Assembly: GCA_003597955.1 (NCBI GenBank)
Contig: QZJU01000008.1
Location: 1 to 56,129 of the forward strand
Direction of reading: 5' to 3'
DNA from: Candidatus Parcubacteria bacterium
GTDB taxonomy: Bacteria; Patescibacteriota; Patescibacteriia; PEXW01
Length of the DNA: 56,129 bases
Below, piece by piece: positions 2,638-46,280 of this stretch. The notes under the pieces are model-generated. The model did no database searches, was not told where the DNA came from, and saw nothing but the letters and a program-made list of their open reading frames with translations. A program made the position numbers and the translations under genes. Numbering within the stretch: position 1 is the first letter of the stretch; every line of letters starts with the position of its first letter.

Positions 2638-3405
2638 ATGAACATCATAATTTATATCTTTACCTTTCTTTTCGGCGCTTGCGTCGGCAGTTTTTTGAAT
2701 GTGGTGATTTATCGCCTGCCCCGGAAACGAAAATTTTTGGATTTCCAACAAAGGTCAAAATGCCCCAGGTGCCGGCACCTTTTAAGCTTCTGGGATTTAA
2801 TTCCGGTTTTCAGTTTTATTTTTTTAAAAGGCAAATGCCGGTTCTGCCGCAAAAGGATCAGCTGGCAGTACCCGCTAGTGGAATTAATGACCGGCTTGAT
2901 TTTCGTCTTGATTTATTGGCAGTACGGCCTGGCTTGGCAAAGCTTGATTGGCCTTATTGGCGTAAGTGTTTTAATCGTTCTGGCTTTTATTGATGGCTTG
3001 CATAAAATCGTACCCGACCAAATCAGTCTGCCGGCGATCGCCATAATTTTTTGCCTGCAGATTTTGGTTAACCCCGGAGAATACCTTAGTTTAATTTTAG
3101 GCGGGATTTTCGGCGCGACCTGGTTCTGGCTGCAATGGTTAATTTCCAAAGGTAAATGGGTTGGCAGCGGCGACATCCGTTTAGGCGCGCTTTTGGGCGT
3201 TTTCCTGGGCCTGGGCAGCGCGCTCTTGGCCATTTTCAGCGCTTATATCATTGGCAGCCTGTGGGCAATTCAGCTTTTAATTCGGGGTAAAGTGCGCTTG
3301 AAAAGCCAGTTACCTTTTGGGATTTTTTTGGGGATTTTGGGCATAGTTTGCTTTATTTTTGGGCCTGAAGTGGTATCCTGGTATAGGGAGTTAATTGGAT
3401 TGTAA
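2638..3405 (+). CDS. pilD: Prepilin peptidase (A24 family aspartic protease)
   Basis: 255 residues with about eight hydrophobic segments. The N-terminal part has FGACVGSFLNVVIYRLPR and two zinc-binding CxxC pairs (CPRC and CRFC), as in PilD/GspO. The catalytic aspartates are in AFIDGLHKIVPDQ (~residue 119) and GSGDIRLGALLG (~residue 180). The enzyme cuts leaders after Gly and usually N-methylates the new N-terminus, acting in the cytoplasmic membrane on the prepilins encoded around it. Its substrates here include prepilins whose leaders come from a repeat element. Confidence 0.94.
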   Translation: MNIIIYIFTFLFGACVGSFLNVVIYRLPRKRKFLDFQQRSKCPRCRHLLSFWDLIPVFSFIFLKGKCRFCRKRISWQYPLVELMTGLIFVLIYWQYGLAWQSLIGLIGVSVLIVLAFIDGLHKIVPDQISLPAIAIIFCLQILVNPGEYLSLILGGIFGATWFWLQWLISKGKWVGSGDIRLGALLGVFLGLGSALLAIFSAYIIGSLWAIQLLIRGKVRLKSQLPFGIFLGILGIVCFIFGPEVVSWYRELIGL

Positions 3406-3419
3406 TTTTGAAAAAACAT

Positions 3420-3450
3420 TTACCCCGTACAATTTTTTGTTAAAAGTGAC
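3420..3450. repeat. Degenerate miniature copy of the leader repeat
   Basis: TACCCCGTACAATTTTTT followed by GTTAAAAGTGAC resembles the left end and then the right end of the ~105-bp repeat that starts 9 bp further on, with the middle missing. Probably an internally deleted relic; the match is short and imperfect. Confidence 0.35.
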
Positions 3451-3458
3451 TTTTTTGA

Positions 3459-3564
3459 CCCCGCACCACTTTTCATAAACAGAACTTAATATTTGACCAT
3501 GGATTTTCACCCGAAAAAATTTCCTCCTCAAAAAGAAAGTCCTTTGTTAAAAAGTGGTGCGGGA
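3459..3564 (+). repeat. Leader-cassette repeat, copy 1 (type I)
   Basis: 106 bp bounded by CCCCGCACCACTTTTCA (3459-3475) and its near complement at 3548-3564. It contains TTGACCATGG; translation from the ATG (3499) runs 22 codons to end in S-G-A-G exactly at the last base of the element. The next codon, outside the element, is the first residue of the mature pilin. Confidence 0.9.
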
Positions 3565-4410
3565 TTTACCTTTATCGAAACTCTGGTGGCTTTGTCGGTC
3601 TTGATGATTTTGCTTGGTTTGATTTTGGCCACCTACCGTCGGGGAAATGAGGACAGTATTTTGAACCGAGAAATTACATTACTAATGAGCCGATTTAGAT
3701 TAGCTCAAGAACAAACCGCTGGCGGAACGGTTGGTCGATATTGCGAACAGCCATATTACGGCATTTCCTGCCAAACCGACTCGAATTGTCCTGGGGGGTA
3801 TGCGTGTCGAAGCGCTGACGCCCCAAAAGGCGGGTATGTGATGGCTTTTAATTGCGATCCAAAACCAGAATCCGGAGCGCAATGGGGTTGGGGTTTTGAT
3901 TACCCTAAAATTGGTGATGTAAGCAAAGCTAATACAACCCCGTATTTCCTTTTTGGGGAAAGAGTTTCTTGTGACAGTAATTGTTATTCTGGTAATGATA
4001 ATAATTGGGTTTATGGGTTGGCTGACGAAAAAACTTCGCTTTTTAGTCGTATTGTGGGCGATACGGTGGTAAGCACTTTTCAACTTGACAACCGCGCGAT
4101 TTTTAAGGATTTGCAAATAATTTCTTCAAACCAGGAAAAGTATTGGTGTAATTCCGCACTGCCTTGGCGAGTCGTGCCCGTACCCAGTGATTATCCCTTG
4201 ATCGCCACAGTTCGTTTTAAACCGTCCGATGGTCGGCAGATTGAAATAACCAATAACGTTAGCATAAAGACTCCTAGCGGTTATGATTGGACAAAAGTTG
4301 AAGTCATGTTCGGCTTGCGGAGCCGAAATACAGATTGTCAGGTTGTCGCTTTTAGCCGCGAAGGCGTAGTTAGCAAGTATCTTGATACCAATTGCAGTTT
4401 TGCAAATTAA
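3499..4410 (+). CDS. Type IV prepilin, cysteine-rich (leader from repeat copy 1)
   Basis: 303 residues from ATG 3499 (an in-frame TTG at 3493 would add two). Leader MDFHPKKFPPQKESPLLKSG-AG is wholly inside the repeat; cleavage G|FTFIETLVA has Glu5. After the helix (~residues 23-60) comes a long globular domain with many Cys, including CQTDSNCPGGYAC. It is a homologue of the next two pilins; all share a C-terminal region with VEVMFGLRSRNTDCQVVAFS-like text. It is likely a minor or surface-exposed pilin stabilised by disulphides after export. No Shine-Dalgarno site is visible. Confidence 0.88.
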   Translation: MDFHPKKFPPQKESPLLKSGAGFTFIETLVALSVLMILLGLILATYRRGNEDSILNREITLLMSRFRLAQEQTAGGTVGRYCEQPYYGISCQTDSNCPGGYACRSADAPKGGYVMAFNCDPKPESGAQWGWGFDYPKIGDVSKANTTPYFLFGERVSCDSNCYSGNDNNWVYGLADEKTSLFSRIVGDTVVSTFQLDNRAIFKDLQIISSNQEKYWCNSALPWRVVPVPSDYPLIATVRFKPSDGRQIEITNNVSIKTPSGYDWTKVEVMFGLRSRNTDCQVVAFSREGVVSKYLDTNCSFAN

Positions 4411-4515
4411 TCCCGTACCACTTTTCATTAACAGACCTTAGTATTTACCATGAATTTTCACCCAAAAAAATTCCCTCCTCAAAAATCAAACCCTTTGTTG
4501 AAAAGTGGTGCGGGG
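4411..4515 (+). repeat. Leader-cassette repeat, copy 2 (type I, orphan)
   Basis: 105 bp, ends TCCCGTACCACTTTTCA (4411-4427) and TGAAAAGTGGTGCGGGG (4499-4515). It begins directly after the stop codon of the preceding pilin. Its ATG (4450) opens 22 codons ending S-G-A-G at 4515, but no pilin follows; the frame runs briefly into the GIY-YIG gene region. Forms the left half of a repeat-GIY-YIG-repeat unit. Confidence 0.88.
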
Positions 4516-4537
4516 CTAACCATGTTAATATTTTATC

Positions 4538-4786
4538 ATGCACTACGTATATTTATTGACCAATCGGATAAATCAAACAATTTACATAGGCTCAACAAAT
4601 AACCTAAAGAGGCGGATTCAAGACCATAATAAGGGTTTGATATTTTCAACAAAAAGATATTTACCTTGGAAATTAATTTATTATGAAGCATATTCCGATG
4701 AAGCCTTAGCTCGAAGGAGAGAAAAGCGACTGAAATATCATGGCAATTCAATTCGTGAATTAAAAAAACGAGCAGGAATAACTTAA
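4538..4786 (+). CDS. GIY-YIG domain endonuclease between two repeats
   Basis: 82 residues, a complete minimal GIY-YIG domain: YVYLL (GIY position), TIYIGSTNNLKRRIQDHNKG, and the catalytic Glu region in LARRREKRLKYHG. Length matches the stand-alone YhbQ/UPF0213-like group. It is framed by repeat copies 2 and 3 and its composition is AT-rich. The family cleaves DNA and includes homing enzymes. Placement inside a duplicated unit with the repeat suggests it helps spread or fix the repeat; that role is inference. Confidence 0.88.
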   Translation: MHYVYLLTNRINQTIYIGSTNNLKRRIQDHNKGLIFSTKRYLPWKLIYYEAYSDEALARRREKRLKYHGNSIRELKKRAGIT

Positions 4787-4798
4787 TTAATGGGTTTA

Positions 4799-4903
4799 CC
4801 CCGCACCACTTTTCACTAACCATCTAATTACTTGACTCAAGAACATTCACCAGAGAAATATCCAAAACCTAAAAAACGCCTTTTGTTGAAAAGTGGTGCG
4901 GGG
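4799..4903 (+). repeat. Leader-cassette repeat, copy 3 (type II)
   Basis: 105 bp, CCCCGCACCACTTTTCA (4799-4815) to TGAAAAGTGGTGCGGGG (4887-4903). The interior differs from type I: the TTG at 4832 opens 24 codons (TQEHSPEKYPKPKKR then LLLKSGAG) ending at the last base of the repeat. It supplies the leader of the next pilin. Confidence 0.9.
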
Positions 4904-5863
4904 TTTACTTTCATCGAAACTTTGGTCGCCATAGGCATTCTTTTGGCTTTGCTGGCTGTGGTCTTGGCCAATTACCGTCGGGGCAATGACGACAGCGTGT
5001 TAAATCGGGAAGTTAGCCTGATGATGTCGCGGGTCAGGTATGCCCAAGAACTGACTTCAGCCGGAACTATAAGCAAGCATTGTCAGGCACCGCATTACAA
5101 CAAGCAGTGCAGTTCCGATGCTGAATGCACAAGTTTTCCCGGCACAGGCCTAAAGGGTTGTCAGCCAAAGCATTGCAGCTTAACTACTGGAACAACTTGT
5201 GCTTCCGATGTAGACTGCCCCGGCGGTGAAAAATGCATATCCGCGACCTTAACACCCGAAGGCGGATATGTGATGGCTTTTAATTGCAAGCCGGATTATG
5301 CAAATTATCCATGGGATTATTATGCAAATTACCCCCAAATTGGGTTGGGTCCAATCCCATACTTTCTCTTTGCTGAGCGTATTGATTGTAAAAACGATTG
5401 TTATGTCAGATTTAATACTTCTTGGGTCTACGATAAATCTGACGGGATAATCAGTTTTTATTTAGCAAACCCTTTTCCGCCCGGAGCTAATCCAAAAGGC
5501 GAGACCGTGGTGGAAATTTTTAAACCTTCACGCCAGATTGTCTTAAGAGATATTCAGCTAATCTCGGGTGTAGATAAATATTCCTGTCAGACGGGTTCTC
5601 CCTGGCGTAATCGGACAATCGCCGGCAAGACCATCCCAGCAGATTATCCTTTGCAAGCTACAGTGAATTTTAAAACTCCTGATGGCCGAAAGTCGATGTT
5701 GACAGACAATATTAGCAAAACCACTCCTGCCGGGTTCGAATGGACGAAGTTAGAGGTTATGCTGGGTATAAAAAACCGCACTACGGATTGCCGGGTGGTA
5801 AGCATTACCAAAGACAGCGTTATCAGCCAGAGCCTTGACGAGAATTGCAGTTTTAGCTCTTAA
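4832..5863 (+). CDS. Type IV prepilin, cysteine-rich (leader from repeat copy 3)
   Basis: 343 residues. No ATG precedes the pilin helix in frame, so TTG 4832, inside the repeat, is the best start. The leader is 24 residues ending LLLKSGAG, then FTFIETLVAIGILLALLAVV with Glu5. The globular domain has two Cys-knot-like stretches (CSSDAECTSFPG and CASDVDCPGGEKC), one more than the previous pilin, and ends in a region homologous to both neighbouring pilins. Probably a paralogue created by local duplication. Confidence 0.87.
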   Translation: MTQEHSPEKYPKPKKRLLLKSGAGFTFIETLVAIGILLALLAVVLANYRRGNDDSVLNREVSLMMSRVRYAQELTSAGTISKHCQAPHYNKQCSSDAECTSFPGTGLKGCQPKHCSLTTGTTCASDVDCPGGEKCISATLTPEGGYVMAFNCKPDYANYPWDYYANYPQIGLGPIPYFLFAERIDCKNDCYVRFNTSWVYDKSDGIISFYLANPFPPGANPKGETVVEIFKPSRQIVLRDIQLISGVDKYSCQTGSPWRNRTIAGKTIPADYPLQATVNFKTPDGRKSMLTDNISKTTPAGFEWTKLEVMLGIKNRTTDCRVVSITKDSVISQSLDENCSFSS

Positions 5864-5968
5864 TCCCGCATCACTTTTCACTAACCATCTAATTACTTGA
5901 CCCAAGGACATTCACCAGAGAAATATCCAAAACCTAAAAATCACCTTTTGATGAAAAGTGGTGCGGGA
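5864..5968 (+). repeat. Leader-cassette repeat, copy 4 (type II, orphan)
   Basis: 105 bp from TCCCGCATCACTTTTCA (5864-5880) to TGAAAAGTGGTGCGGGA (5952-5968), beginning right after the preceding stop codon. A TTG at 5897 opens 24 codons ending S-G-A-G at 5968, with no pilin after it. Left half of the second repeat-GIY-YIG-repeat unit. Confidence 0.87.
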
Positions 5969-5990
5969 TCCATCATTATTATTTTTAAAA

Positions 5991-6240
5991 ATGTATTACG
6001 TTTATTTATTAATAAGTAGTAAGAGACGGACAATATACATCGGCTCTACAAATAATTTTAAGAAAAAGAATTAAGGAACATAATAAGGGACTAGTTTTTT
6101 CCACCAGAAGGTATATGCCATTGAAATTGTTCTATTATGAAGTATATACAGACGAAAAAGCCGTCCGACAAAGAGAAAAAAGTTTGAAATATCACGGTAA
6201 TTCAGTCAAGGAATTAAAAAGGAGAGTTGGTATATCTTAG
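5991..6240 (+). pseudogene. Frameshifted GIY-YIG endonuclease
   Basis: ATG 5991 reads MYYVYLLISSKRRTIYIGSTNN, then a one-base gain in an A-rich run near 6060 (AAGAAAAAGAA) brings an early stop. In the shifted frame the protein continues RIKEHNKGLVFSTRRYMPLK and ends LKRRVGIS before TAG at 6238. It is a diverged paralogue of the gene at 4538 with the same position between two repeats. Either inactive or made by frameshifting on the A-run; the former is likelier. Confidence 0.85.
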
Positions 6241-6253
6241 ATCTATGGGTTTA

Positions 6254-6359
6254 CCCCGCACCACTTTTCATTAACAGACTGTAAATTTTGACCATGGATT
6301 TTCACCCGAAAAAATTCCCGACTCAAAAAGAAAGCTCTTTGTTGAAAAGTGGTGCGGGG
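6254..6359 (+). repeat. Leader-cassette repeat, copy 5 (type I)
   Basis: 106 bp, CCCCGCACCACTTTTCA (6254-6270) to TGAAAAGTGGTGCGGGG (6343-6359). ATG 6294 opens exactly 22 codons to 6359. Right half of the second repeat-GIY-YIG-repeat unit and leader source of the next pilin. Confidence 0.9.
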
Positions 6360-7319
6360 TTTACTTTGATTGAAACCCTTGTTGCGACCGGGATACTATT
6401 GGGTTTATTGGCCGTGGTGCTGGCCAATTACCAAAGGGGCGCTCAAGAGAGCGCTTTACATAGAGAAGCTGAATTATTTATGTCAAATATCCGTTTGGTC
6501 CAGGAGCAAACTGCCGCTGGTCAAATCGTTAATTATTGCTTGCACTATGTGGGCGCTGATTGTTTAACTGGATGTTCGGGTTATTCTTGCAGTCCTAAGC
6601 AAGAAACGCCTAAGGGTGGTTTTGGGCTTTTGGTCGGGTGTCAGCTAAATAGCGAGCCCGGCTGGGATCAGCCCTGGATTATTTATGGCGCAAATAATTC
6701 CTATCCTTCTCAAAATTCCACGAAAAAACAGGCTTATTATCTTTTTTCTGATAACCGCGCATGCTGGAATAATACGGGAACCGATTACTGTTGTTACCCC
6801 CTAACCAATTTTAGCTGTATCGGTTATGACGAAGGAACTGGCGACGCAGCTTCGGGTTCAGATGGCATCGTCACCACTCGACAATTTACTTTACTAAAAG
6901 GTGATACCCTAGAAAGAGAGCATGTTTTAGATAAGCAAATAGAATTTAAAGATTTAAGGCTCACGCGATATGTTCAGACGACCGGGAGTTTAAAGACTTA
7001 TTCTTGCCGTTCAGTTCATCCCGATAACCATACCCCTTGGCGAAATTTAAAGGTTCCCCAAACAAATTCTATGGTTATCAGTAATTATCACCTTGCAGCT
7101 TTGTTAAGATTTTTACCGCCCAACGGTCGTAAAGTTGTCATTTCCGACAATATTGCGGATTACCCACCAGATGCGGCAGGTCAACCAGATAAAAACAATC
7201 CTTGGTTAAAGGCGGAAGTTATGCTGGGCATAAAAAACCGCGCTACGGATTGCCGGGTGGTGAGCGTTAGCAAAGAGGGAGTAATCAGCCAGTCAGTTGA
7301 TTCAGACTGTGCTTTTTAG
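6294..7319 (+). CDS. Type IV prepilin, cysteine-rich (leader from repeat copy 5)
   Basis: 341 residues from ATG 6294 (in-frame TTG at 6288). The leader (22 residues, ending LLKSGAG) is repeat-encoded; mature start FTLIETLVATGILLGLLAVV with Glu5. The body has many Cys (for example CCYPLTNFSC) and shares the C-terminal LKAEVMLGIKNRATDCRVVS region with the two pilins before it. Third paralogue of the family; presumably assembled into the same pilus or alternative to the others. Confidence 0.87.
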   Translation: MDFHPKKFPTQKESSLLKSGAGFTLIETLVATGILLGLLAVVLANYQRGAQESALHREAELFMSNIRLVQEQTAAGQIVNYCLHYVGADCLTGCSGYSCSPKQETPKGGFGLLVGCQLNSEPGWDQPWIIYGANNSYPSQNSTKKQAYYLFSDNRACWNNTGTDYCCYPLTNFSCIGYDEGTGDAASGSDGIVTTRQFTLLKGDTLEREHVLDKQIEFKDLRLTRYVQTTGSLKTYSCRSVHPDNHTPWRNLKVPQTNSMVISNYHLAALLRFLPPNGRKVVISDNIADYPPDAAGQPDKNNPWLKAEVMLGIKNRATDCRVVSVSKEGVISQSVDSDCAF

Positions 7320-7331
7320 TAAAGTTAGTGT

Positions 7332-8345
7332 GTGAAACCTAAGATTCGACGGGCAAAAAAACCAAAGAAAATTTTTAAAGGCGCGGCCCTGCTGGAGTCG
7401 GTTATTGCCATTGGCGTCATCATGACCGGCGTAGTCGGTTCTTTGGTTCTGATCAACACCACCATCAAACTTGGCCGGACCAACCAAGACCGGATTATTG
7501 CCCAAAATCTGGCTCGGGAAGGAATTGAGCTGGCATATGGTTTACGAAACTCCGCGACTTTGGTCCACACTGAAGATTCTACAGTTTCCTGGGATTCGTA
7601 TTTGTATAAGTTTACATTGAAATCGGGAAGCTACGACACTTTGTATGATTTAGGCACTGGCAATTATGATGCTGGAACTTGCGTCACCATTGCCGGCGGT
7701 GATGCCATTTTGGATATGTGTGACATTCAGGTTTTGTTATTACATTTATACGAAGGCGGCCCATTGCCTTCGATGTGTAACACCATTCCCAATGGCGGTA
7801 GCAATCCTTCCCCGGACGCCAATGGTTGTGATTTTAACAACGACGGCGTAACCGGAATTTTGGATGTGACATTCATGATCTCCTCATTTTATAAAGAATC
7901 ATACCAGTTTTCCGCTGGCTATCCTGTTTTGTCGACAAAATTTCAGCCCAACGCACAGCTAGTTTTTTATGATGTTCGTGACGGTGAGACTATAAATTTA
8001 AGTCAGATGTGGGACGATGCTCGCAGTCGGATACAGGTAAATAACGGCGCCTACGTGCAGAATGTGACCGAAGCCGGTAATACGCCGACCAAATTTTATC
8101 GAACCGTTATTATGCAGGAAGTATGCCGGGGCACTCAAAGCGGAAGCGAAGAGGCCGTTTTGGTGCCAACAGATTCAGTCTTAAATTGCTATGATTATGT
8201 GAAGGCGCAAGGTTGGTCAGATGCTGACGCTGGCACAATAAAAAAAGTTGGGGTTTTGGCTAATTCCGAAGTCCGTTGGCCAAGCCCAACCAGCGGGACT
8301 AAAGTTTTGTACCAAGAATATATTTATGACTGGCTTAACTTCTAA
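7332..8345 (+). CDS. PilV-like minor prepilin with dockerin-like insert
   Basis: 337 residues, GTG start at 7332, 12 bp after the previous gene and without a repeat leader. A basic leader ends KG, cleavage before AALLESVIAIGVIMTGVVG with Glu5; the segment NQDRIIAQNLAREGIELAYGLRN is typical of PilV/GspI-type minor pilins. Around residues 115-200 there are two Ca-binding, dockerin-like duplicates: GDAILDMCDIQVLLLHLYEG and DFNNDGVTGILDVTFMISSF, the latter with the D-x-N-x-D-G loop. Dockerins bind cohesins or stabilise folds with calcium. Confidence 0.85.
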   Translation: MKPKIRRAKKPKKIFKGAALLESVIAIGVIMTGVVGSLVLINTTIKLGRTNQDRIIAQNLAREGIELAYGLRNSATLVHTEDSTVSWDSYLYKFTLKSGSYDTLYDLGTGNYDAGTCVTIAGGDAILDMCDIQVLLLHLYEGGPLPSMCNTIPNGGSNPSPDANGCDFNNDGVTGILDVTFMISSFYKESYQFSAGYPVLSTKFQPNAQLVFYDVRDGETINLSQMWDDARSRIQVNNGAYVQNVTEAGNTPTKFYRTVIMQEVCRGTQSGSEEAVLVPTDSVLNCYDYVKAQGWSDADAGTIKKVGVLANSEVRWPSPTSGTKVLYQEYIYDWLNF

Positions 8346-8445
8346 CCCCGCACCACTTTTCATTAACAACCTTAATATTTGACCATGGATTTTCACCCGA
8401 AAAAATTCCCGACTCAAAAAGAAAACCCTTTGTTGAAAAAGGTGG
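8346..8445 (+). repeat. Leader-cassette repeat, copy 6 (truncated right end)
   Basis: Begins directly after the TAA of the preceding gene with CCCCGCACCACTTTTCA (8346-8362) and is type I inside, nearly identical to copy 7. Its right end is broken (TGAAAAAGGTGG) and runs into the left end of copy 7, giving a tandem pair. Its leader frame is therefore not joined to a pilin. Confidence 0.85.
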
Positions 8446-8449
8446 TTTA

Positions 8450-8554
8450 CCCCGCACCACTTTTCATTAACAACCTTAATATTTGACCATGGATTTTCAC
8501 CCGAAAAAATTCCCGACTCAAAAAGAAAACCCTTTGTTGAAAAGTGGTGCGGGG
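8450..8554 (+). repeat. Leader-cassette repeat, copy 7 (type I)
   Basis: 105 bp, CCCCGCACCACTTTTCA (8450-8466) to TGAAAAGTGGTGCGGGG (8538-8554). ATG 8489 gives 22 codons ending at 8554. Tandem with copy 6; the two are almost identical over about 90 bp, so the duplication is recent. Confidence 0.9.
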
Positions 8555-9322
8555 TTTACTCTTATTGAAGTCATCGTGGCTACTGCCGTTTTTTCTATGG
8601 CCATGGTTTTGGCCACCACAGTTTTCGTGGTTTTCCTGCAACAGCAAAGGCGCACAATCAATCAGCAGGAAATGCAGAATGACGCCCGGGCCGTGATGGA
8701 GGAAATCGCGCAAAAACTGCGAGAAGGCGTAGCTGACTATGCTTATTACGCCACGAATTTTAACCTAGCACCCCAAAAGCTTTTAAGCAGTTTGAACGGT
8801 TCGAATGATGAGTGTTTGGTGATTCGCGATGCGCTTAACGAGCAATATTTTTATCGCTTGGCAGGAGGCAAGATTCAGAAGTTTTCTACTTCGACGCCGG
8901 GCACTACTGCCTGCAGCACGATTGCCAACTGGTCGGATATTACACCCGCCTCTTTGACGGTTGAGGCATTTTCAATTTTTATTTCCCCTTCCCAAGATCC
9001 CTTTCAGGGCAAATCTTATAAGGCCTGCGGCAAGCCAGGTGACTTTTTGGATCCGCCGGATAACGACAAGTGTACAGATTGGGGAACTTTTTGCACCGTT
9101 GACGGAAACACCTGTGAATACCAAAAATTAACCAATAGCATTTTGACCTGCTATTGCACGCCCCAAAGGTTCGGCAATGTCGTTCCTTTGCATCCCAAAG
9201 TCACCATAAGCCTGAAAGTTTCCAGAGTTGCGGGTCAATTGACTTTAAGCGAAACTTACCAAACTACGATTACTAGCCGGATTTTCAAGAATTTCGATAA
9301 ATTAAACCGGTATGCGCCGTAA
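8489..9322 (+). CDS. PilW-like minor prepilin (leader from repeat copy 7)
   Basis: 277 residues from ATG 8489 (TTG at 8483 also in frame). Repeat-encoded leader, then G|FTLIEVIVATAVFSMAMVLA with Glu5, and a helix QQQRRTINQQEMQNDARAVMEEIAQKLREG typical of PilW/GspJ-type subunits. C-terminal half contains six or more Cys. The 3' end overlaps the next gene by 11 bp, suggesting translational coupling. Order PilV-like, PilW-like, PilX-like matches minor pilin operons that build the pilus tip. Confidence 0.87.
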   Translation: MDFHPKKFPTQKENPLLKSGAGFTLIEVIVATAVFSMAMVLATTVFVVFLQQQRRTINQQEMQNDARAVMEEIAQKLREGVADYAYYATNFNLAPQKLLSSLNGSNDECLVIRDALNEQYFYRLAGGKIQKFSTSTPGTTACSTIANWSDITPASLTVEAFSIFISPSQDPFQGKSYKACGKPGDFLDPPDNDKCTDWGTFCTVDGNTCEYQKLTNSILTCYCTPQRFGNVVPLHPKVTISLKVSRVAGQLTLSETYQTTITSRIFKNFDKLNRYAP

Positions 9323-11849: not shown

Positions 11850-12290
11850 ATGCCATTTAAAAAGTCAATTCGATTAACAAGTTTTGATTATTCGTCTGAC
11901 GGAGCGTATTTTGTGACCATATGTACTTTTCAAAAATCCAAATTCATTATTCCGGCATACGAAATAATTTTGAAACGTGAGTTAAGGGAATTAGAAATAC
12001 GTTTTCGAGGCGTAAAAATAGATTTTTTTGTTTTTATGCCAACTCATTGCCATATCATATTTGTTTTTCGCAACGCTGAAGTCGATTTGCCAAAAGTTAT
12101 TCAGGCATTTAAATCAATAACAACCTTAAAATTAAAGAAAGCTGGATTCCACGGCAGTTATTTTTGGCAGAAGAATTATTATGAACATGTAGTTAGGGAC
12201 GAAGAAGCTTTGTATAGAATCAGGGAATATATTAAATTAAATCCTGAAAGCGAAAGACTGTTAAATTTTAGCCAGTCAAAACACGATTAG
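11850..12290 (+). CDS. REP-associated tyrosine transposase (RAYT, Y1 HUH family)
   Basis: 146 residues. YFVTICTF near the start, the HUH pair in FMPTHCHIIF (His66, His68), and the catalytic Tyr region FWQKNYYEHVVRDEEAL (Tyr110/111) define a Y1_Tnp/RAYT protein of usual size. RAYTs nick single-stranded hairpin DNA at REP sequences. REP-like palindromes flank it on both sides. The gene is AT-rich relative to its neighbours, consistent with mobility. Confidence 0.92.
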   Translation: MPFKKSIRLTSFDYSSDGAYFVTICTFQKSKFIIPAYEIILKRELRELEIRFRGVKIDFFVFMPTHCHIIFVFRNAEVDLPKVIQAFKSITTLKLKKAGFHGSYFWQKNYYEHVVRDEEALYRIREYIKLNPESERLLNFSQSKHD

Positions 12291-29619: not shown

Positions 29620-29728
29620 CCCCGCACCGCTTTCCAGCCGAATACTTTTTACCTGCTTACAGAATATTCAGCCTGGCAAATATCTTTTACGCTTAAATCC
29701 AAGACTTGAGTTGGAAAGTGGTACGGGG
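29620..29728 (+). repeat. Divergent leader-type repeat upstream of tuf
   Basis: 109 bp bounded by CCCCGCACCGCTTTCCA (29620-29636) and TGGAAAGTGGTACGGGG (29712-29728). The frame equivalent to the pilin leaders is open and reads PGKYLLRLNPRLELESGTG, recalling type II PEKYPKPKKRLLLKSGAG, but no pilin follows. The right end abuts the tuf -35 box. Confidence 0.82.
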
Positions 29729-45305: not shown

Positions 45306-45800
45306 ATGCAAAAAAGCTTAATAATTTTTATTTCCGTCGGACTGTTATTAATCGGCTTGGCTTGGTCAGCGGGCGGCCATGAGATTTCCAATTACCTGCC
45401 ATACTATTACCAACGGGTTTTGGGAAAATCCGCAAAGGTGGAAATCAGGAACCAGGTGACCAAAGTGGAAGTCGCCCGGTCTGACTCGGCCAAAGCCAAA
45501 GGCTTGAGCCGCAGAAAAAAATTACCTTATGACAAAGGTATGCTTTTTTTGTTTGATGAACCCGGATATTACGAATTTTGGATGAAAGATATGTTTATTC
45601 CGCTGGATATCGTTTGGATTTCCGGAGATAAAATCGTTGAAATCACCCGGAGCGTCTTGCCGCCTGTCAAAGACGCTGAACCGGCAAAGGTGAAGCCCAG
45701 CCGGCAGGCGGACAAGGTCTTGGAGGTTTACGCGGGCACGGCCAGCCAATGGCAAGTCGGCGATTTCGCCAGAATCAATTTTGATGCCTGGGTGAAGTAA
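45306..45800 (+). CDS. DUF192 family protein, membrane-anchored
   Basis: 164 residues. One N-terminal membrane or signal segment (residues ~4-22), then the DUF192 fold: VEVARSDSAKAKGLSRRKKL, GMLFLFDEPGYYEFWMKDM and IPLDIVWISGDKIVEI. The family is widespread with no settled biochemical role. Ends next to the mobile repeat upstream of rplU. Confidence 0.92.
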   Translation: MQKSLIIFISVGLLLIGLAWSAGGHEISNYLPYYYQRVLGKSAKVEIRNQVTKVEVARSDSAKAKGLSRRKKLPYDKGMLFLFDEPGYYEFWMKDMFIPLDIVWISGDKIVEITRSVLPPVKDAEPAKVKPSRQADKVLEVYAGTASQWQVGDFARINFDAWVK

Positions 45801-45801
45801 A

Positions 45802-45906
45802 CCCCGCACCACTTTCCAAATTAAACCTTAGGTTTAGTGTAAGGTTATTTGCCTAATAAATATTTTAGTACTAAATGTTGGCGTTTTGCTGGAAAGTGGT
45901 GCGGGG
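45802..45906 (+). repeat. Divergent repeat of the leader family upstream of rplU
   Basis: 105 bp bounded by CCCCGCACCACTTTCCA (45802-45818) and TGGAAAGTGGTGCGGGG (45890-45906). Starts one base after the DUF192 stop codon. The interior is AT-rich, has an in-frame stop in the leader frame and no start codon, so only the ends are conserved. Confidence 0.85.
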
Positions 45907-45968: not shown

Positions 45969-46280
45969 ATGTCAAAAATCGCAGTTATTAAGACCGGGGG
46001 CAAACAGTACCTGGTGAAGACCGGCCAAGTTTTAAGAGTGGAAAAATTGCCGGGCGAGCCAAAAGCTAAAATTATTTTTGATGAAGTATTGATGACCGCC
46101 GACGGTACCGAAGCAAAAGTCGGCCAACCTTTGGTGGCCGGCGTTAAGGTCGAAGCCGAAATATTAAAACAGGGACTTGGCAAGAAGCTCTATGTGGAAA
46201 CTTACCGGGCCAAGACTCGCAAGCACCGCAAAATCGGCCACCGGCAGATGTTTACTGAAGTAAAGATAATAAAAGTATAA
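45969..46280 (+). CDS. rplU: Ribosomal protein bL21
   Basis: 103 residues. AVIKTGGKQYLVKTGQVLRV and YRAKTRKHRKIGHRQMFTEV are diagnostic. rpmA (L27), the usual next gene, is absent here. The following 177 bp hold two small hairpins (46284-46301 and CAACCAA/TTGGTTG at 46306-46326) and no clear gene before the convergent gene. Confidence 0.97.
   Translation: MSKIAVIKTGGKQYLVKTGQVLRVEKLPGEPKAKIIFDEVLMTADGTEAKVGQPLVAGVKVEAEILKQGLGKKLYVETYRAKTRKHRKIGHRQMFTEVKIIKV

Follow-up and report, generated by a model that had tools for sequence, protein, structure and literature searches.

We analyzed a 56,129-nucleotide stretch of DNA from a Candidatus Parcubacteria bacterium (the window), which is one contig of a 0.99-Mb genome in 21 contigs (G000). 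Between positions 3459 and 8554 it holds seven copies of an element of about 105 bp with inverted ends, interspersed with four pilin genes (Table 1). The start codon and the leader of these four pilins both come from the element, in copies 1, 3, 5, and 7, and the codons that follow the element-encoded KSGAG are TTT-AC[CT], the F1-T2 of the pilin. An earlier, sequence-only reading had proposed that the element boundary and the predicted peptidase site coincide to the base in four genes and that the inverted end itself encodes K-S-G-A-G. Both statements held, as did the start codons and leader lengths it gave. Leaders of type IV prepilins are cytoplasmic and are removed by prepilin peptidase before the conserved F/M1. 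The features of such a leader are present here: G at −1, F at +1, E at +5, a hydrophobic helix, and, just upstream of the copies, a gene for a PilD-like enzyme that is predicted to be the expected cutter at SGAG^FT. Copies 2, 4, and 6 are also of the leader type and lie immediately behind the stop codons of the preceding genes.

The 17-bp inverted ends of the family read CCCMGCACCACTTTTYA, and the end can also be given as CCCMGCACCACTTT. In the window, the 17- to 18-bp ends are exact 18-bp complements in copies 3, 5, and 7 and slightly degenerate in copies 1, 2, and 4, and copy 6 lacks the right end. A refinement of the earlier description of a repeat with inverted ends is that the outermost A/T of the end is part of a 4-bp target duplication, which is an exact TTTA in copies 3, 5, and 7. 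Allowing up to 3 mismatches, the 18-bp end occurs 41+41 times in the genome, against 1+0 for a reversed control, and single-strand folding of the copies gave z-scores of −5.6 to −8.4, so the inverted repeat is not a chance feature. Pairing the ends gives 34 elements. Five lie at pilins and 2 lie downstream of pilins; the other 27 are intergenic, with interiors that differ from those of the pilin-leader copies. Leader subtypes A and B occur in this genome only at or beside pilins. Flanking 4-bp duplications (TTGA or TTTA, in either orientation) are exact in 20 of the 34 elements and within one mismatch in 27, while 2,000 trials with shuffled flank pairings gave a mean of 6.8 exact matches and a maximum of 14. 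Most of the intergenic copies carry matched TTGA/TTTA/TCAA duplications. Judged by its terminal inverted repeats, its target duplication, and one empty orthologous site, the element is mobile DNA; the empty site comes from one pilin orthologue in a genome of the same genus (G001), pilin sites being the ones compared. TTGAC is also the core of the −35 box, and this may perhaps be why many copies are intergenic. Separately, G000 contains 45-bp hairpins made of ACCCCGCACCACCCTGCA, 9 nt, and the reverse complement (C3:18338-18382, C5:23787-23831, and C7 near 4824-4868; L026, L027, and L024). They have the CCCCGCACCAC core in common with the element and differ in the rest; they are possible ultra-short derivatives or terminators.

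Pilin genes are a repeated target. A search for G-F-T-x-x-E (GGN TTY ACN NTN RTN GAR) gave 9 matches in G000. Two of them are identical in sequence, sit at contig ends, and appear to be a single gene, which leaves 8 sites. The element is present at 5 of these 8. By chance, 5 of 34 elements would fall on these sites with a probability of about 1e-10; if only 10% of targets tolerate insertion, the figure is 9e-6. The estimate uses about 9,700 TTNAC sites, a number scaled up from the window. Selection for tolerated sites, besides targeting, can yield the same pattern. Insertions recur at pilin F1-T2 because TTY-ACN is a TTNAC target. Elements 1 and 7, which lead pilins 1 and 4, share 91% DNA identity, whereas the mature pilins behind them share 26% protein identity; by this comparison, the leaders have travelled independently of the pilin bodies. 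In G001, the orthologue of pilins 2 and 3 has no element and starts with an unrelated leader, MYKSKQKNLKG|FTLMEI, and in the pilin 4 orthologue an element with another interior is inserted at the identical codon. In 13 of the 27 intergenic copies, read forward, the first codon that could serve as a start lies exactly six codons before the right end (M-E/K-S-G-A-G), and therefore the end alone can make a minimal leader. In each of the five pilin copies the frame is open for at least 24 codons, while 6 of the 27 intergenic copies have one of at least 15, which points to selection for leader function. Copies 1, 5, and 7 are 90 to 94% alike. Some may thus reflect recombination from pilin to pilin instead of fresh insertion, which leaves uncertain how many independent insertions the window holds and weighs against the interpretation given below.

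The element is not confined to this genome. A search with a gapped pattern of the inverted ends showed that 7 of 380 genomes in the class carry elements. In a wide genome collection, at least 105 stretches carried the pattern, and the matches listed are mostly from Patescibacteria (Komeili-, Kerfeld-, Kaiser-, Doudna-, Staskawicz-, Taylor-, Niyogi-, and Zambryskibacteria), with some Deltaproteobacteria metagenome-assembled genomes (MAGs) also among them; the viral contigs searched with the pattern gave none. Exact target duplications flank 31 of 96 elements in other genomes, against a shuffle mean of 4.7 and maximum of 11, and C follows TTNA in 22 of the 30 cases with a match. The insertion target is thus TTNA, mostly TTNAC. 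The sequence-only reading had the element inserting before FTxIE codons; TTY-ACN is indeed targeted, but the preference is for TTNA, usually followed by C, and not for FTxIE as such. With E at +5 and a hydrophobic stretch required, distinct pilin insertions numbered 34, from about 19 genomes; an inverted partner lies upstream in 33 of them, and the duplication is exact in 22. These loci were chosen largely by element match, so this is a number of cases and not a frequency. Less biased sampling came from a codon-degenerate search for K-[S/T]-G-A-G-F-T in the 380 genomes, which matched 16 of them, although some of the matches lie outside pilins. The codons were exactly AAA-AGT-GGT-GCK-GGR in 31 of the 37 matches listed. 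The codons for K-S-G-A-G are almost frozen across genomes, and it is the DNA of the element end that accounts for the peptide. Together with the intergenic copies and their mostly duplicated targets, this distribution bears out the proposal of a mobile cassette that gives each pilin a new start and leader.

Several pilins keep an older leader upstream, with an open frame running through the element: MRRSG|FT-PHHFAMYYRRIGQQLERNTT-MKSGAG|FTLIE in G003, MRRNPQNCHG|FT-QHHF...NDHMKSGAG|FTLIE in G024, and MKKLFQKQRG|FT-QHHF...KKSGAG|FTLLE in G071. In-frame read-through from older leaders occurs also in G359 and in C20 of G000, and G359 has doubly nested insertions. Such nesting is expected, because insertion regenerates a TTNAC target. 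Two further observations concern relatives of the element. A Deltaproteobacteria MAG (L087, L111, L120, L154, L163, and L169) has many copies of 89-bp relatives with the same outer core and without TTNA duplications. In a Kaiserbacteria MAG (L097:7411-7826), three element copies stand in tandem with spacer pieces that resemble RNase P RNA (aggaaagtccg), and Rfam gave only a weak partial class B RNase P match around the copies, at 7813-7865.

The same inverted ends enclose a second form of about 300 bp, in which a GIY-YIG nuclease is the sole gene. The clearest case, in G329, is an element of about 310 bp with perfect 17-bp ends (CCCAGCACCACTTTTTA), one 82-codon GIY-YIG open reading frame (ORF), and nothing else. 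It is intact and lies at F-T codons within an RHS-type gene (NRR|FTGHE; L216, about 1498-1809, read on the minus strand), and non-pilin F-T codons are thus also targeted. Elements of the GIY-YIG form occupy G|FT codons of pilins in G192 (310 bp, with a broken ORF) and G401 (300 bp), both flanked by exact TTTA duplications. G071, G359, and G512 have similar elements with ends that are more decayed or composite, and in G325 the left end stands behind MKG at a contig edge. In G071, G359, G401, and G512, the nuclease frame stays open across K-S-G-A-G (K-T-G-V-G in G512) and continues into the pilin; in these four genomes the nuclease precedes the pilin in one ORF, as its N-terminal extension. In the window, an intact GIY-YIG ORF separates copy 2 from copy 3, and a decayed one separates copy 4 from copy 5. 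The sequence-only reading had described the repeats and leaders correctly and had overlooked this gene, its decayed copy, and the GIY-YIG form as a whole.

We then compared the GIY-YIG genes of 13 element-bearing genomes. Nucleases with these ends form one clade (support 96/92), to which the window ORF belongs, and none of 500 label shuffles gave as low a value; among the genes examined, none outside the clade had paired ends around it. Furthermore, in a sample of 351 genomes of the phylum, the next two best matches to the clade, in G512 and G401, were both inside ends at pilins, and the lower-scoring GIY-YIG matches examined were not inside element ends. End-enclosed GIY-YIG genes occur in genomes of at least 6 families. 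The motif residues Y5, Y17-x-G19, R27, H31, and E63 are invariant in 4 members. A single-sequence AlphaFold model of the window protein reached a predicted local distance difference test (pLDDT) score of 54 and gave just the expected b-b-a-b-a-a order. In the element loci examined, we found no recombinase gene between the ends, GIY-YIG being the one gene there. Profile searches for DDE_Tnp_1 and rve had no match in G000, G359, and G401, and a search for Y1_Tnp had none in G359 and G401; G401 is complete and G359 is 80% complete.

Table 1. Features of the window that bear on the element family
Feature	Coordinates	Strand	Remarks
Prepilin peptidase, PilD-like (A24_N_bact + Peptidase_A24)	2638..3405	+	Pfam PF06750, 1.8e-35; PF01478, 2.2e-11
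Left-end remnant, degenerate (TTTACCCCGTACAA...)	3419..3446	+	Repeat family D3
Copy 1, leader type A	3459..3564	+	ATG 3499, 22 codons to KSGAG; flanks TTGA / TTTA
Pilin 1	3499..4410	+	Leader from copy 1; mature part from 3565; N_methyl 6.4e-4
Copy 2, leader type A	4411..4515	+	Begins at pilin 1 stop codon; upstream side of GIY-YIG stretch
GIY-YIG nuclease ORF, 82 aa	4538..4786	+	Pfam PF01541, 8.4e-19; by tree, in the clade of nucleases enclosed by these ends in other genomes
Copy 3 left target duplication TTTA	4795..4798	+	Exact; right one, 4904-4907, is the F-T codons
Copy 3, leader type B	4799..4903	+	TTG 4832, 24 codons to KSGAG
Pilin 2	4832..5863	+	Mature part from 4904
Copy 4, type B	5864..5968	+	92% to copy 3; directly 3′ of pilin 2 stop codon
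Decayed GIY-YIG ORF	5990..6239	+	Frameshift, stops; between copies 4 and 5; repeat families D5, D7
Copy 5, type A′	6254..6359	+	ATG 6294, 22 codons to KSGAG; TTTA duplication exact
Pilin 3	6294..7319	+	Mature part from 6360; G001 orthologue element-free
Pilin-like protein without element (KGAALLES...)	7332..8345	+	Orthologue in G001
Copy 6, type A′	8346..8445	+	Lacks the right inverted end (..AAAAAGGTGG|TTTA); 100% match to copy 7 in the part common to both
Copy 7, type A′	8450..8554	+	ATG 8489, 22 codons to KSGAG; TTTA duplication exact
Pilin 4	8489..9322	+	Mature part from 8555; G001 orthologue has other-interior element at same codon
Intergenic copy, other interior	29620..29728		Between two translation-factor-like GTPase ORFs
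Intergenic copy, other interior	45802..45906		Between ORFs 45306-45800 and 45969-46280

The layout of the window has a regularity of its own: the downstream copy resembles the upstream copy of the same pilin (A-pilin 1-A, B-pilin 2-B, A′-pilin 3-A′), and the GIY-YIG genes sit between unlike copies. We considered copy 6 and the first C20 copy as intact pre-insertion leaders (..GGTGG|TTTA) and rejected this; the frame reads W-F-T, there is a stop upstream in the window copy, and G is missing at −1, so these are decayed ends.

Taken together, these data suggest a mobile element that carries a GIY-YIG nuclease, along with derivatives resembling miniature inverted-repeat transposable elements (MITEs), which is tolerated in pilins as its products leave with the leader. 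We put the probability of this interpretation at roughly 0.7. The autonomous-looking form is the one of about 300 bp with a GIY-YIG gene and no other, and the MITE-like forms, about 36 to 118 bp, keep the ends alone. The nuclease is the leading candidate for the mobility enzyme because it is associated with the ends and no other gene lies between them; its form probably is, or was, the autonomous partner. The anatomy of the element and its insertion pattern can be read directly from the DNA, and from them we infer that the nuclease drives transposition and that the cell cleaves the leader. Insertion would be driven by a staggered cut, made by the nuclease or, in trans, by a relative since lost. 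The right end provides an in-frame K/E-S-G-A-G before F1, and thus the leader is replaced or lengthened and the mature pilin is untouched. Prepilin peptidase would then make its cut at SGAG^F, at the cytoplasmic face of the membrane, parting the pilin from the element-encoded leader or nuclease. With its product in the discarded part of the precursor, an insertion would be nearly neutral. In G000, leader subtypes A and B may by now belong to the genes as their leaders, which would amount to partial domestication. The alternative left open earlier, a selfish or a domesticated cassette, therefore need not be decided one way, since both fit, for different copies.

Several points weigh against this interpretation. 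GIY-YIG enzymes are not known as movers of inverted-end elements, and typical ones leave short 3′ overhangs. We found no intact GIY-YIG element in G000, which has one ORF with degenerate ends and one that is decayed, and none in G001 and G377 either, which have many MITE forms and are 77% and 72% complete. Some copies in Kaiser-, Niyogi-, and Zambryskibacteria have no TTNA duplication. The recombinase search covered two families (DDE_Tnp_1 and rve) plus Y1, and another transposase may still be at work. Assembly errors in MAGs could have affected single loci, not the recurrence across genomes.

The strongest competitor is that the elements are MITEs of an ordinary transposase, DDE or other, and that the GIY-YIG gene is a passenger caught between the ends, which would leave the facts about pilin leaders unchanged. 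Inverted ends with a fixed 4-bp duplication do look DDE-like, no GIY-YIG gene of the clade was found in the MITE-rich G001 and G377, and G001 has four rve matches and one DDE_Tnp_1 match. However, the sole gene seen between the ends belongs to one GIY-YIG clade across all those families, and G401 and G359 carry the GIY-YIG form without a match to any of the three transposase profiles, so we regard the passenger explanation as unlikely, though a serious contender. Mobilization by a Y1/RAYT enzyme (RAYT, REP-associated tyrosine transposase; REP, repetitive extragenic palindrome) was rejected as the main agent; duplications are present, and the element also occurs in genomes without Y1 matches. 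The window does contain a RAYT-like Y1_Tnp transposase ORF at 11850-12290 (Pfam 3.2e-8), flanked by similar short translated sequences (..PPAMPAWRAGC..), and this looks like a separate REP-type family.

Spread could also resemble homing, with the nuclease cutting the conserved G-F-T codons of pilins and break repair copying the element into paralogous pilins. GIY-YIG homing enzymes exist, there is a weak NCBIfam match to a group I intron endonuclease, no part of a pilin is more conserved than the target codons, and the A/B subtypes keep to pilins in this genome. Homology-driven homing would not, however, place 27 copies at unrelated intergenic sites, most with matched duplications, nor is it expected to put a GIY-YIG form into an RHS-type gene. 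As the explanation of the family we find it improbable, and it may act in addition to transposition. Far less credible still is ordinary paralogy, in which the copies stem from duplication of a pilin gene whose leader lay within an inverted repeat, and the repeat is an immobile, regulatory mRNA hairpin over the start region. Pilins 1 to 3 are paralogous (41 to 49% identity), the repeat folds strongly, and copies 2, 4, and 6 are positioned like terminators behind stop codons. Paralogy of whole pilin genes was what the sequence-only reading had set against its cassette, and it is contradicted by the similarity of leaders in front of dissimilar pilins 1 and 4, by the intergenic copies and their target duplications, by the empty site in G001, and by the in-frame scars of older leaders in other genomes.

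If the preferred interpretation is true, mobile DNA can occupy an expressed gene without splicing when the insert is placed in the discarded part of a precursor, and it is a direct source of new signal peptides. A nuclease would be linked to type IV pili, for which roles in DNA uptake and host contact have been proposed in Patescibacteria, and GIY-YIG would be suggested as a possible transposition enzyme. More tentatively, at a little under even odds, this could be a new type of transposon: a lone GIY-YIG as the mobility enzyme, inverted ends, a 4-bp TTNA duplication, and prepilin peptidase in the role of the "splicing" enzyme, with the nuclease made as a pilin leader and freed into the cytosol and the short derivatives serving as new leaders. 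Our literature search, in which subscription papers were mostly not covered, found no description of inverted ends around bacterial GIY-YIG genes or of mobile DNA supplying pilin leaders.

Among known systems, the nearest precedents include the Rickettsia palindromic elements (RPE), which are palindromic, ~100 to 150 bp, and inserted in frame in protein genes, where they are translated (PMC10969869). The likeness lies in a palindromic insert within coding genes that is read through in frame. RPE are reported from unrelated metabolic genes and as translational fusions, whereas in the window family the end encodes a peptidase site and recurs at one codon of one gene class; judged by the descriptions, the TTNA duplication and the nuclease-carrying form also set it apart. 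Known MITEs are mostly derivatives of insertion sequences (IS) with DDE transposases. Two of them, Correia elements and RUP, are like the present family short, with inverted ends and no transposase gene; they too lie between genes in many copies and have a short target duplication. A partner with a DDE transposase was not found here (DDE_Tnp_1 and rve searched), and a GIY-YIG gene lies between the ends instead; in our search, no MITE was reported to supply signal peptides. IS200/IS605 and RAYT/REP systems have a Y1 transposase, end hairpins, and no target duplication, whereas here the duplication is present and G359 and G401 have no Y1_Tnp match.

The other near precedent comes from the rRNA genes of the candidate phyla radiation (CPR), which contain GIY-YIG inserts reported not to be introns, plus short (<200 bp) unexplained inserts (PMC11270868). 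These, and I-TevI-type GIY-YIG homing endonucleases, resemble the present form in having a small GIY-YIG nuclease in an insert within a host gene. Inverted ends are not described in PMC11270868, and here the host is a pilin and removal is expected by prepilin peptidase, not by splicing; in L200 and L216, Rfam gave no intron match. We did find an element copy inside a 16S rRNA gene of a Parcubacteria MAG (L105, 4286-4390; Rfam small-subunit rRNA [SSU] match 4226-5030) and another inside a group I intron (L141:2677-2782; Rfam match 2582-2879). Some of the unexplained inserts of PMC11270868 may therefore belong to this family, and it may explain part of both the short and the GIY-YIG inserts in CPR rRNA genes. 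Inteins with a homing endonuclease are similar in that a nuclease lies in frame within a host protein and is expected to be absent from the mature protein. Unlike an intein, the element would be removed at the N-terminus by the host prepilin peptidase, with no splicing; it would hide inside an expressed gene by way of prepilin processing, as an intein does by self-splicing.

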